From Rhodospirillales bacterium (GTDB lineage Bacteria > Pseudomonadota > Alphaproteobacteria > Rhodospirillales > 2-12-FULL-67-15): a stretch of DNA of 34,702 nucleotides. The first letter of the stretch is position 1, and each line of letters opens with the position of its first letter. Below, in pieces: positions 3,098 through 31,328 of the stretch. Where the stretch lies: NCBI GenBank assembly GCA_009693905.1, contig SHWG01000007.1:1-34702 (forward strand), read 5' to 3'. Position numbers and translations under genes: made by a program. A model generated the notes under the pieces. That model saw nothing but the letters and a program-made list of their open reading frames with translations. It was not told the DNA's origin and made no database searches.

Positions 3098-3505
3098 TCA
3101 CGCGCCGTTTTGGGCCAGGAGCTTGGAGGCGATGGTGATGTACTTGCGCCCGGCCTCCTGTGCGCTCACCGCCGCTTGGGGCAGAGTCTCCGTCTTGCGC
3201 GCGCTCGCCAACTTGATGAGCATCGGCAGATTCACGCCGGCGATGACCTCGACGTTGCCCTTGTCCATGATCGAGATGGCGAGATTGGACGGGGTGCCGC
3301 CGAACATGTCGGTGAGCACCGCGACGCCTTTGCCGGAATCGGTGCGGGCGACGGCGTCGAGAATCTCGGCGCGCTTCGCCTCCATGTCGTCGTCGGGACC
3401 GATGCACACGGTCGCGGTTTGCGGCTGCGCGCCGACGATGTGCTCGAGCGCGCTCTGCAGTTCGATCGCCAGGCGGCCGTGCGTGACCAGCACCATTCCG
3501 ATCAT
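3098..3505 (-). CDS. PTS EIIA component, mannose/fructose family
   Basis: MIGMVLVTHGRLAIELQSALEHIVG...VAVLTDMFGGTPSNLAISIM, EIIA-Man pattern. Confidence 0.9.
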   Translation of the reverse strand: MIGMVLVTHGRLAIELQSALEHIVGAQPQTATVCIGPDDDMEAKRAEILDAVARTDSGKGVAVLTDMFGGTPSNLAISIMDKGNVEVIAGVNLPMLIKLASARKTETLPQAAVSAQEAGRKYITIASKLLAQNGA

Positions 3506-4488
3506 TGCCGTCGTCCCTTCGGTCGTTTAACAGTCTTGCGCGCGCGGAGCGCACGACTCCGGTTTCGGCCGGGGCGCCGATTGTGCGCCGCCACCGCCCC
3601 CGTTTCCAGATCCCTATGGCGAATCTCGACGGGAATCTCGCGCTTCTTCAGCCATTGGGCGAGCCGTTCGGCGACGAAAACGGAGCGGTGCCGCCCCCCG
3701 GTACAGCCGACCGCGAGGGTGAGGTAGCTCTTGCCTTCGGCGGCATAGCGCCCCAACAGCGGTCCGACCAACTGGGTGAGATGGCGGAAAAAACCCGCGA
3801 AGTGCCGATCGCGGCCGATATAGGCGGCCACCGCCCGGTCGCGGCCATCCCTGGGCTTCAGTTCGGGGCGGTAATGCGGATTGCGCAGGAACCGGACGTC
3901 GAACACCATATCCGCTTCGCCCGGCAGACCATGGCGATACGCGAACGAGGTCACGAACACCACCATGCCGCCCTCGGCGCCGGCGGCGAAACGGCCCGAG
4001 AGCACGTGCTTGAGTTCGCCAGGCCCGATCTCGCTCGTGTCGATGACCAGATCGGCGCGTTCGCGCGCCGCGCGCAAGAGCCGGCGCTCGCGGCGGATGC
4101 CCTCGCCGAGCGTGCCTGAGCCGGCGAGCGGATGGCGATGCCGGGTTTCGGCGTAGCGGCGCTGCAACACCGCGTCGGTCGCGTCCATGAAGACGAGGTG
4201 CGCTTTTTTTCCGGCATGCTTGGCAAGCGCGGCGAGCAGGCCGCGCACATTGAAATCGCGGGTGCGGACGTCGATGCCGACCGCGAGCGGGCGCTGGGGC
4301 CGGCCCCGGCCCGCGGGCGCGATTAGTTTTTCGAGCAATCCCAATGGCGCGTTGTCCACGGTTTCGAAGCCCATGTCCTCGAACGCCTTCAAGGCGGAGC
4401 TTTTTCCCGCCCCGGAGATCCCGGTGACGAGGACGACCCGGCGGGGAGTCGTGCGGGCGCGCGGGCTTAACCCCGCGCGCTTAATCAT
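3502..4488 (-). CDS. rapZ: RNase adapter protein / nucleotide-binding protein RapZ (YvcJ)
   Basis: VVLVTGISGAGKSSALKAFEDMGFETVDNAP...AVGCTGGRHRSVFVAERLAQWL; alternative GTG start at 4512 would overlap the hprK stop. Confidence 0.93.
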   Translation of the reverse strand: MIKRAGLSPRARTTPRRVVLVTGISGAGKSSALKAFEDMGFETVDNAPLGLLEKLIAPAGRGRPQRPLAVGIDVRTRDFNVRGLLAALAKHAGKKAHLVFMDATDAVLQRRYAETRHRHPLAGSGTLGEGIRRERRLLRAARERADLVIDTSEIGPGELKHVLSGRFAAGAEGGMVVFVTSFAYRHGLPGEADMVFDVRFLRNPHYRPELKPRDGRDRAVAAYIGRDRHFAGFFRHLTQLVGPLLGRYAAEGKSYLTLAVGCTGGRHRSVFVAERLAQWLKKREIPVEIRHRDLETGAVAAHNRRPGRNRSRALRARKTVKRPKGRRQ

Positions 4489-4500
4489 GGTGCGCCCCTT
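4455..4500. repeat. GC-rich palindromic repeat family 1 copy at the rapZ start
   Basis: gggcgcgcgggcttaaccccgcgcgcttaatcatggtgcgcccctt; about 39/46 identical with one gap to 18006-18050 at gltB. Confidence 0.75.
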
Positions 4501-4508
4501 CGCGGCGG

Positions 4509-4961
4509 TCACGGTTTTCTCTTTCTTTTCCGGTGCCGCGTTATTCGCGCGAGCGCCATGCCGATCTTGATCGGTGCCGTCGCCTCGAACGGCGCGAGGC
4601 CGACGCGCGCCAGCGACACGCCGGCCATCACGCAGCGGCCGGGCGCGGGCATGCGTTCCACCCGCTCCGGTCTCGCCAAATCCACCACTAGAACGAGTTC
4701 GACGGCGGGGCGCCTCGGAACGGCGACGACGCCGATGCCGCGGACTTCGATCAACCCGGCCAGAGCCGGGGGCGCGGCCGCGAACAAGCGGTTGCGGCGA
4801 ACCGAAAGCACGACCCGGTCGTCGGCGACGAGAAGGGCGCCCCGGTCGATGAGCCGGAGCGCGAGATCGGATTTTCCCGCCCCCGGAGGGCCGCGCAACA
4901 AAACGCCCCGGCCGTTCACGGCGACCACGGTTCCATGGATCTGGCGGAGCGGGGCGGGCAT
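4509..4961 (-). CDS. hprK: HPr kinase/phosphorylase, short alphaproteobacterial form
   Basis: GRGVLLRGPPGAGKSDLALRLIDRGALLVADDRV Walker A; IEVRGIGVV motif; gene neighbourhood. Confidence 0.9.
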   Translation of the reverse strand: MPAPLRQIHGTVVAVNGRGVLLRGPPGAGKSDLALRLIDRGALLVADDRVVLSVRRNRLFAAAPPALAGLIEVRGIGVVAVPRRPAVELVLVVDLARPERVERMPAPGRCVMAGVSLARVGLAPFEATAPIKIGMALARITRHRKRKRKP

Positions 4962-8488: not shown

Positions 8489-10111
<1,623 letters not shown>

Positions 10112-10146: not shown

Positions 10147-10245
10147 CCCCTCGGTCGCCGGGCGGCGAGCGCCGCTCGCCTTGGCTTTCGCGCCATTCGG
10201 CGCGCCGCCGCGCATATCGTATTGCGCCCCTACCGGGGCGGGGCG

Positions 10246-13403: not shown

Positions 13404-18038
<4,635 letters not shown>

Positions 18039-18095
18039 GGCGCGCCCCTTTCCGGGCGCGACGCGCATCCCGCGCGCGCGGTCCCGCCGGTAGGC

Positions 18096-18142
18096 GGGCG
18101 CGGAACAGAATCCCCGCGCGCCGCCAGCATTGCGCCCCTTTC
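18096..18142. repeat. Second palindromic repeat copy, exactly 90 nt from the first, in the gltB leader
   Basis: Ungapped alignment with 18006-18052 (33/47), with perfect blocks gggcgcg, gaatccccgcgcgc, gcgcccctttc. Confidence 0.65.
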
Positions 18143-18376
18143 GGGGGGCGCGCGCGCGCGCGTACTGGCGGTCCGATCCTTTCATCGTCCGGGCTCCGGT
18201 CTCTCGTTGACAGGCAAGTTCTTTGCATATCAGCGCCCGGCGTTCGAGGCCAGCGGGAATCCGCCGCCAGCCCCCCCGGAAGGGTCGGTTTCCCACCCCC
18301 TCCGCCTTGGGGGCCGGCTTGGGAGCCAAGGGCCGGGGTGTTATAAGAACACTCGCATTATCCGGGGGGCCGGCGC

Positions 18377-28085: not shown

Positions 28086-28982
28086 ATGAGAAAAACCAAA
28101 GAGCGCGGAATTATCGCCTTCCAGGGCGCGGCCGGAGCGTACTCCGACCTCGCCTGCCGCGAAGCCTATCCGTCGATGCGAACTTTGCCGTGCCGCACCT
28201 TCGAGGACACCTTCGCCGCGCTGGCCAAGGGCCGGGCAGGACTCGCCATGATCCCGATCGAGAATTCGGTCGCCGGGCGCGTCGCCGACATTCACCATTT
28301 GCTGCCCGATTCGGGCCTGTTCATCGTCGCCGAGCATTTCCAGCGGGTCAACCACCACCTGCTCGGACTCAAGACCGCGCGGTTGGCCGACATCGCCCGC
28401 GTCCACAGCCACGTCCATGCGCTCAGCCAATGCCGCAAACTGATCCGCAAGCTGCGTCTGCGTCCGGTGATCCATGAGGACACCGCCGGCGCGGCGGCAT
28501 TGGTGGCGAAGCTCGGCGATCCGACCCAAGGAGCGATCGCGTCCAGGCTCGCGGCCCGCATCCATGGCCTCAAATCGCTGAAAGCGAACATCGAAGACGC
28601 GGATCACAACACCACGCGCTTCATCGTCATGGCTAAGCGGCCGCGGGTTCCCGGCACGAACGCCGGCCCGGTCGTCACCAGTTTCGTCTTCCGCGTGCGC
28701 AACGTGCCCGCCGCGCTCTTGAAGGCGCTCGGCGGCTTCGCCACCAACGGCGTCAACATGACCAAGCTCGAAAGTTACGTCAGCGCCGATTTCATCGCCG
28801 CCCAGTTCTACGCCGATATCGAGGGACATCCCGAAAGCCGCAACGCCGGGCGCGCTTTCGATGAACTCGCCTTCTACACCCACGAGGTGAAGGTGCTCGG
28901 CGTCTACCCGGCGCACCCCTATCGCCTCAAGATGGAAAAGCGCGCGTCGCGCGGGCTTACCCCCGCGCGCACCAAAAAATAA
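28086..28982 (+). CDS. pheA: Prephenate dehydratase (with ACT domain)
   Basis: IIAFQGAAGAYSDLACREAYP, IPIENSVAGRVADIHHLLP, NTTRFIVMAK, KLESYVSADFIAAQFYADIEGH. Confidence 0.94.
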   Translation: MRKTKERGIIAFQGAAGAYSDLACREAYPSMRTLPCRTFEDTFAALAKGRAGLAMIPIENSVAGRVADIHHLLPDSGLFIVAEHFQRVNHHLLGLKTARLADIARVHSHVHALSQCRKLIRKLRLRPVIHEDTAGAAALVAKLGDPTQGAIASRLAARIHGLKSLKANIEDADHNTTRFIVMAKRPRVPGTNAGPVVTSFVFRVRNVPAALLKALGGFATNGVNMTKLESYVSADFIAAQFYADIEGHPESRNAGRAFDELAFYTHEVKVLGVYPAHPYRLKMEKRASRGLTPARTKK

Positions 28983-29004
28983 GCGCGGGCTTAACCCCAC
29001 GCGC
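28948..29004. repeat. Two palindromic repeat family 1 copies flanking the pheA stop codon, between convergent pheA and nudC
   Basis: cgcgcgggcttacccccgcgcgc (28948-28970) and gcgcgggcttaaccccacgcgc (28983-29004); core shared with 4459-4480. Confidence 0.75.
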
Positions 29005-30131: not shown

Positions 30132-31142
30132 ATGGCGTTTCGGCATAATTGGATCGGGCGGGGCACTGTCTTGGCGGCGGCGTTGGCCGTCGGCGCTTGC
30201 GCGCCGGTGCCGAGGATACCTTCCCCCTACGTCGGCTGCGACGAGGTACCGCCCGACGTATTCGAATCCGTGGACTGGGACGCCGCGCGCAGGATCAACG
30301 TGCGTATCCGCGACGGCGAATTCCAGCCTTCCCTGATCCGGCTCTACCAGGGCCGCCCCTATGTGATGCGGATCGAAAACCGCGACCGCGGCGCGCGGCG
30401 GTTCCAATCGCGGGAGTTTTTCCAGGCGGTCTATATCCATTCCCTGACCAGGCCGAGCGGGACCTATTCGGTCGAGTGCCCGTGGGGCGTGCGCGTGTCG
30501 CCAGGCGAGGTCGCGGAGGTGCGTTTCATCGCCGCCCGCGACGGCCGTTACGAGTATTCCGACGATGTGCTCCCCTTTGTGTTCGGCGCCATCCCGGACG
30601 GCATCGTCCACATCGAACAGCCGCCGGCGATCGCCGCCCTGATGTCGCCGGTGGCTCCGGGAATCATCAAGCCCGAGGATGTCCCGGCCGGGCCTTACAC
30701 CCCCGTCGCCGTGCCCGTCGTTCCACCCGCGCCCGAGACACCCCCTTCGCCCGCCGATCCCGCCCTGTTCCCGCTGCCGATGCCCGCGCCGGAGATACCC
30801 GCGATGCCGGTCGAGCCCGTCACGCTGCCAATACCGATGCCCGCGCCCGAGGCCCCTTCGCCCGCCGATCCCGCCCTGCTCCCGCTGCCGATGCCGGCGC
30901 CGGAGATACCCGCGATGCCGGTCGAGCCCGCCCTGCTGCCAATACCGCTGCCGGCACCCGAGACTCCGCCTCCCGCCGATCCCGTCCTGCTCCCGCCGCC
31001 TTCGCCCGCGCCGGTTCGGCCGGCCGAGCCGGAAGCGGCGCCGACGCCACCGCCCGCGCCGCCTCGGTCACTCCTGCCCCAACCAGCGCCTCAGGGCCTA
31101 TTCGAAAAAAATCCCGGCGGCGTCGGCCTGTTCGGGCAATAA
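30132..31142 (+). CDS. Predicted lipoprotein with cupredoxin-like region and proline-rich repetitive C-terminal tail
   Basis: Lipobox-like LAVGAC; IRLYQGRPYVMRIENRDRGARRFQSREFFQAVYIHS resembles cupredoxin-like domains; tail with two 37-aa repeats. Confidence 0.7.
   Translation: MAFRHNWIGRGTVLAAALAVGACAPVPRIPSPYVGCDEVPPDVFESVDWDAARRINVRIRDGEFQPSLIRLYQGRPYVMRIENRDRGARRFQSREFFQAVYIHSLTRPSGTYSVECPWGVRVSPGEVAEVRFIAARDGRYEYSDDVLPFVFGAIPDGIVHIEQPPAIAALMSPVAPGIIKPEDVPAGPYTPVAVPVVPPAPETPPSPADPALFPLPMPAPEIPAMPVEPVTLPIPMPAPEAPSPADPALLPLPMPAPEIPAMPVEPALLPIPLPAPETPPPADPVLLPPPSPAPVRPAEPEAAPTPPPAPPRSLLPQPAPQGLFEKNPGGVGLFGQ
30747..30968 (+). repeat. Two tandem 111-bp (37-aa) in-frame repeats
   Basis: SPADPALFPLPMPAPEIPAMPVEPVTLPIPMPAPEAP / SPADPALLPLPMPAPEIPAMPVEPALLPIPLPAPETP; period 111 nt. 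Confidence 0.85.
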
Positions 31143-31228: not shown

Positions 31229-31328
31229 CGGGAGGTTGGCGCCGGACGGGTCCCTCGCCAACCCGGTCAGGTCCGAAAGGAAGCAGCCGTAACGAGTTTC
31301 GGCCCGGGTCGACGTTCAGCCTCCCACC
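31229..31328 (+). ncRNA. ffs: Signal recognition particle RNA, small bacterial type (4.5S)
   Basis: GGTCAGGTCCGAAAGGAAGCAGCC conserved domain; terminal pairing GGGAGG...CCTCCC; upstream of dnaX. Confidence 0.9.

Follow-up and report, generated by a model that had tools for sequence, protein, structure and literature searches.

A double-hairpin repeat, apparently mobile and genus-specific, lies in frame within genes of a GC-rich alphaproteobacterium, including rapZ

The window analyzed here, a stretch of 34,702 nucleotides, carries on its minus strand the gene hprK followed by rapZ, and a copy of a repeated element occupies the 5' end of rapZ. The host genome is alphaproteobacterial, its 16S is bacterial, and its RapZ is closest to those of Rhodospirillaceae and Magnetospirillum (57-60%). 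We compared the genome that contains the window (G000; 1.91 Mb, 132 contigs, 82% complete) with two congeners of the window species (G001 and G002). All three are draft MAGs of apparently uncultured bacteria, 76-96% complete, and genes were called with a codon-usage caller written for this analysis. Copies of the element, which consists of two hairpins (hp1 and hp2) and a linker, were scored with a covariance model, R1, built from aligned BLAST copies and used with a cut-off of E<=0.001. The features of the window are as follows.

4509-4961, minus strand: hprK (PF07475), upstream of rapZ; its stop TGA at 4511-4509 overlaps the rapZ GTG
3502-4512, minus strand: rapZ; PF03668 from residue 26, directly after the element-encoded part, and PF22740
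4510-4512, minus strand: GTG overlapping the hprK stop (GTGA), homologous to the ancestral rapZ ATG of G002
4453-4508, minus strand: rapZ copy of the element, hp1 decayed and hp2 intact (R1 56.6 bits, E 2.4e-12 in the window)
4495-4500, minus strand: AAGGGG, right arm of hp1, Shine-Dalgarno-like (duplex -7.6 kcal/mol)
4486-4488, minus strand: ATG in the element linker; its homolog is the sole in-frame start of the G001 ortholog
4457-4480, minus strand: hp2 of the rapZ copy, GCGCGCGGG-GTTAAG-CCCGCGCGC, reading RAGLSPRA in the RapZ frame
10196-10241, minus strand: copy with shortened hp2, between the ORF 8489-10111 and trkH (R1 32.4 bits)
18004-18059, minus strand: gltB copy with loop GATTCG (ancestral type) and linker ATG at 18036-18038 (R1 60.7 bits)
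18092-18149, minus strand: second copy upstream of gltB, degenerate (R1 32 bits)
28943-28992, minus strand: copy across the stop of the prephenate dehydratase gene (28086-28982, plus strand; R1 40 bits)
28982-29004: further hp2-like unit beside the prephenate dehydratase copy

A first-pass annotation of this DNA had described a palindromic repeat at the beginning of rapZ, and the sequence, its coordinates, the ATG (4488-4486) and AAGGGG (4500-4495) are all present as it described them. So is the alternative GTG (4512-4510) across the hprK TGA (4511-4509), from which the element is also in frame. The 85% identity given for the rapZ and gltB copies recurs over about 47 nt, and the view that canonical RapZ begins after the repeat agrees with the PF03668 boundary, residue 26 being counted from the GTG. 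The repeat had been taken for a single short palindrome; it is palindromic, but the unit is longer and comprises two hairpins, the first of which has decayed in the rapZ copy. Elsewhere in the window, positions 30742-31014 hold imperfect repeats of alternating 54 and 57 nt within an ORF (30270-31142, plus strand) that lies directly upstream of the small SRP RNA (31230-31328) and dnaX.

A BLAST search of window positions 4420-4530 against its own genome returned 41 matches, 29 of which yield the consensus GCGCCCCGATAGGGGCGCATCATTTAATGCGCGCGGGGTTAAGCCCGCGCGCCC. The element of about 51 nt is composed of two GC hairpins, hp1 (CGCCCC-GATA-GGGGCG) and hp2 (GCGCGCGGG-GTTAAG-CCCGCGCGC), separated by a linker of about 10 nt. 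Folded as DNA, the consensus gives z = -3.9. Few base pairs vary across copies, so covariation lends the fold little independent support; the predicted fold is backed by symmetry and copy number. Model R1 finds 93 matches in G000, a few of them antisense double matches, corresponding to about 90 copies, and in this respect the further genomic copies that the first-pass annotation had anticipated are present in abundance. Congener G001 yields 78 matches to the same model and G002 yields 69; 37 additional genomes of the order yield none, nor do 384 others drawn from the class. An exact-pattern search of GTDB r220 contigs and IMG/VR, weak because genomes near G000 are perhaps not covered, gave no match, and an Rfam scan of sampled copies gave no match to known RNA families. 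Within the window R1 detects five copies, each of them on the minus strand. Taken by themselves, the two half-motifs do not reach significance against dinucleotide shuffles of the window; the whole element is significant in the genome-wide comparison. Only that comparison settles the significance of the element, pattern statistics from the window alone being insufficient. Taken as a whole, the best explanation is very probably that of a genus-specific, non-autonomous, palindromic mobile element without a gene of its own.

The family also includes composite forms. A longer version of about 75-87 nt, in which hp2 encloses a further hairpin (for example TCACGCCGGTAGGCGTG...CACGACG), is open in frame in several genes and is represented by L114 (C25_8194), L127 (C6_4961), L224:1182-1264 and L173:7511-7597. 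In other copies (L113, C83_26502; L129, C44_5896; L231:3361-3431) hp1 encloses a CGTC-REP-like hairpin (TCCCCGCGAAAGCGGGGA), as if one repeat were nested in another.

Clean empty sites are seen in the orthologs of G001 or G002. The 12 distinct intragenic inserts that align cleanly measure 48, 51, 63 or 75 nt, every one a multiple of 3; the same holds for only about half of 10 inserts that are non-coding or cross a stop. The cleanest pair, filled in G001 (L060) and empty in G000 (L127), differs by 48 nt. A MITE is marked by terminal inverted repeats and a target-site duplication; across filled and empty pairs no consistent target-site duplication is seen, the ends being ambiguous by a few nucleotides, and in the fold of the element its two ends are unpaired with each other. 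The RAYT/Y1 transposase family PF01797 was not found in G000, G001 or G002, although control genomes gave matches, and a RAYT/Y1 transposase as the mover was rejected on its absence from the three genomes searched. The element may move as single-stranded DNA, a route proposed solely by analogy with single-strand hairpin elements.

The rapZ site is empty in G002 and filled in G001 and G000, and those more distant relatives whose sequence is readable there have no visible element at rapZ. The N-terminal sequence is thus not ancestral, and the first-pass proposal that a mobile palindrome was captured as coding sequence gains support from both the copies and these filled and empty sites. In G002, rapZ begins ...GTCC ATG ACC CGG CGT CCC ATA ACC CGA CGC CCG TCG CCG CGC CCG GTC GTG CTC GTC ACC. 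In G001, the ancestral frame reads ATG ACC GCC CCG AGA GGG ACG CAT CAT GAT TAA and stops within the element, and the ATG of the element is in frame with the P-loop strand VVLVTG (ATG ATT AAG CGC GCG GGG ATT CGC CCG CGC GCC CGC GGA CTT GCG...). Because the element ATG alone opens RapZ there, capture of the translation start is required on that sequence, a draft assembly with an N-run just upstream of rapZ where an assembly error could alter the one-base frame difference. Next to a run of N, G001 has another copy of the element (L218:13634-13678), which occupies the 3' portion of hprK immediately ahead of the rapZ copy.

The G000 gene reads GTG ACC GCC GCG AAG GGG CGC ACC ATG ATT AAG CGC..., with an hp1 one base shorter than that of G001. 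This 1-nt difference brings the ancestral start, now GTG, back into frame, so that GTG 4512 and the element ATG at 4488 both lead into RapZ. G000 RapZ might accordingly begin at the ancestral GTG, coupled to the hprK stop, with the element as an in-frame insertion a few codons from the N-terminus and its ATG incidental. The GTG is homologous to the G002 ATG, retains the stop/start overlap and opens a frame that continues into RapZ. Pairing with the 16S 3' end, which carries CACCTCCTTT, is nonetheless weak at the GTG (-3.5 kcal/mol) and strong at the element ATG (-7.6 kcal/mol); background sites have a median of -2.7 and a 5% tail of -6.9. In the sister lineage G001, where the ancestral frame stops in the element, the element ATG must suffice. 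We consider initiation at the GTG possible but doubtful, and the element ATG is probably the start used in G000. The earlier suggestion that the start was captured together with the repeat therefore holds for G001, where the element ATG is the only one available; for G000, with both starts in frame, it is the likelier of two readings.

A different reading would make copies near gene starts untranslated regulatory hairpins, terminators or attenuators of the 5'-UTR, with the proteins beginning downstream. Short GC hairpins near starts are often regulatory, many other copies are intergenic, and many N-terminal REPs have been considered possible annotation artefacts (PMC3733652). At rapZ, however, the stretch between the element ATG and VVLVTG is free of ATG, GTG and TTG in G000 and G001 alike, so hp2 is translated if RapZ keeps its first strand, and many copies elsewhere sit well within genes, between two stretches of coding sequence. 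Untranslated hairpins are accordingly a very improbable account. The insert sits in a tolerant part of RapZ, for the leader is both unstructured and unconserved: in an AlphaFold model residues 1-20 have pLDDT 53-55 and no secondary structure, the first strand starts at 26, and in RapZ of other Alphaproteobacteria the stretch ahead of this strand is not conserved and contains no element. The element appears to be neutral for RapZ.

For gltB, the first-pass claim that the repeat supplied the start fares less well. The linker ATG (18036-18038) has a good Shine-Dalgarno match, its energy of -7.3 kcal/mol being calculated one base away from the start; the ATG at 18068, farther upstream, also reads in frame. 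The element-free gltB of G002 already begins ATG ATG GAA TCG GAT CGC GCC CGC ATG CCT GGA; with ATG GAA present there, the element may have inserted around a pre-existing start, judging from these sequences. In glutamate synthases the residues before the catalytic Cys form a propeptide that is removed, so the gltB site would be tolerant.

Across G000, where 87% of the sequence is coding, 38 of 92 copies lie inside predicted genes, 11 across a stop, 1 across a start and 42 between genes. Many of the interior copies are deep within genes, flanked by coding sequence on both sides. We assigned reading frames to 70 interior copies from the three genomes, G001 and G002 being sampled and the G001 contigs having been selected for carrying copies, so that the G001 fractions are not those of a random sample. 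On the same strand as the gene, frame 0 accounts for 28 copies, frame 2 for 4 and frame 1 for 1; on the opposite strand, frame 2 accounts for 30, frame 1 for 4 and frame 0 for 3. Fifty-eight of the 70 thus share one frame per strand. Same-strand frames 0 and 2 and opposite-strand frame 2 are mostly open, and same-strand frame 1 contains a TAG. As stops are no commoner in same-strand frame 2 than in frame 0, the 28:4 ratio is a real bias (p about 1e-5) that needs another reason. The frame-0 peptide, which is hydrophilic and rich in R, P and G, may be better tolerated; the element peptides, RPDRGASFNARGVKPAR on one strand and RAGLTPRA..APL.GR on the other, are short and hydrophilic.

By Pfam, copies lie within or next to conserved domains of HflX, a TrmA-like methyltransferase, a CofC-like protein, asparagine synthases, RimP, MltG, DnaG, ferrochelatase (hemH), Mur ligase and SpoU methylase, among others. 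One Mur ligase gene of G000 contains two in-frame copies (L103:1577-3106; C60_8278 and C60_8536). At gene ends, all 11 same-strand copies that cross the end of a gene in G000, G001 and G002 give that gene its TAG stop in frame 1, and the element thus also provides new C-termini to 11 genes.

The loop of hp2 distinguishes the species. Among typed loops, GATTCG accounts for nearly all in G001 (33) and most in G002 (21), and G000 has GTTAAG (35) in excess of GATTCG (10), plus others. In nine orthologous shared copies, differing positions make up 6% of hp1, 23% of the linker, 0-2% of the hp2 stems and 48% of the loop, and in 8 of the 9 pairs, rapZ included, the G000 loop is of the GTTAAG type or closely derived from it. 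Separate insertions at preferred sites in each species would account for loops that differ consistently between species at shared sites. The shared pairs nevertheless keep the same insertion points and private linker or hp1 variants, namely GATTAA (rapZ), GCGGATCA (C96_12100) and CGGTA with CAA (C53), and we regard independent insertion as distinctly improbable. Because orthologs have these private variants in common, the copies appear to be old, and in G000 their loops seem to have changed in parallel from GATTCG to the GTTAAG type while each linker, a few bases away, kept its own variant. GATTC fits the GANTC motif of CcrM, and selection against such a methylation or restriction site is an unlikely cause of the change, GATTC and GAATC not being clearly depleted in G000 relative to G001 and G002. 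The leading idea is very short-tract gene conversion: copying of this kind would keep the element uniform within a species, amounting to concerted evolution of dispersed hairpins of about 24 nt, a proposal that we put forward tentatively and at somewhat less than even confidence. If true, it would mean simultaneous replacement of the same residues across many unrelated proteins (GDSPAR to GVKPAR, GESPRA to GLTPRA).

Comparison with described families begins with the Rickettsia palindromic elements (RPE), reportedly due to Ogata et al. in 2000. Like RPE, the element belongs to palindromic families found within and between alphaproteobacterial genes, lies in frame in conserved genes and encodes a conserved peptide. 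RPE measure 105-146 bp, form a long stem from terminal inverted repeats and are reported from Rickettsia and Wolbachia (PMC2229807, PMC10969869). Compared with RPE by description, our element is only about 51 nt long, has two separate hairpins and inhabits a GC-rich host of another order. The CcrM-associated intergenic repeats (CIR) of Caulobacter and Brucella are described as about 110 bp long, extragenic only and furnished with stops in all six frames (PMC2229807). As in that description, the element is alphaproteobacterial and has two arms, a linker and, in the dominant GATTCG type of G001 and G002, GANTC in the terminal loop; it differs in its length of about 51 nt, in the 38 of 92 G000 copies inside genes, and in most typed G000 loops, which have no GANTC. 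GTAG/CGTC REPs are short hairpins, some of them intragenic, that can provide TAG stops, and CGTC families have no dedicated transposase (PMC3733652). The ends of the element consensus bear neither a GTAG nor a CGTC tag, two unlike hairpins act as a unit, there is no RAYT, and hairpins resembling CGTC REPs are confined to a few copies, where they are nested. The mitochondrial double-hairpin elements (DHE), which reportedly go back to Paquin et al. in 2000, resemble the element in having two GC-rich hairpins as one mobile unit. DHE, however, belong to mitochondrial genomes and the element is bacterial and protein-coding. DHE are GC-rich, potentially mobile and mostly intergenic or in rRNA genes (PMC10085805).

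Membership of a described family (RPE, GTAG/CGTC REPs or CIR) would fit the in-frame intragenic copies, as known for RPE and some REPs, and the arms, linker and GANTC loop of the CIR as PMC2229807 describes them. The length of about 51 nt against 105-146 (RPE) and about 110 (CIR), two independent hairpins unlike the RPE stem, the missing terminal tag, RAYT and Rfam match at scanned copies, and the statement that CIR are absent from genes and have stops in all frames make such membership improbable. The element is best classed as a variant of protein-coding palindromic elements outside the RPE, CIR, REP and DHE families, set apart by their descriptions.

The repeat family, the filled and empty sites, the frame bias and the unavoidable translation of hp2 in RapZ are legible in the sequences, and a course of events can be proposed for them. 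The hairpins presumably allow spread via single-stranded DNA, with an enzyme supplied in trans. Persistence within genes would follow from an element that is free of stops in certain frames and encodes a short hydrophilic peptide, selection retaining only in-frame inserts at tolerant places. At rapZ, an insertion just after the first codons in the common ancestor of the window species and G001 would have brought the hp1 arm AAGGGG and the linker ATG as a ready-made translation start, and hp2 would have become the N-terminal residues of RapZ.

The best-known examples of selfish palindromes that code for protein come from Rickettsia and Wolbachia, which live inside cells and are under relaxed selection. 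The version described here is smaller, has two hairpins and occurs in conserved genes (dnaG, hemH, rimP, mltG and Mur ligase) of a GC-rich bacterium from another order. The three species, with filled and empty sites side by side, make insertion, choice of frame and loss countable, and the parallel loop change in old copies turns the question of how very short dispersed repeats remain uniform into a testable one. The rapZ case illustrates how a mobile repeat can equip a gene with a new ribosome-binding site, start codon and N-terminus, and it indicates that the conversion of selfish DNA into protein sequence extends beyond the Rickettsia group.
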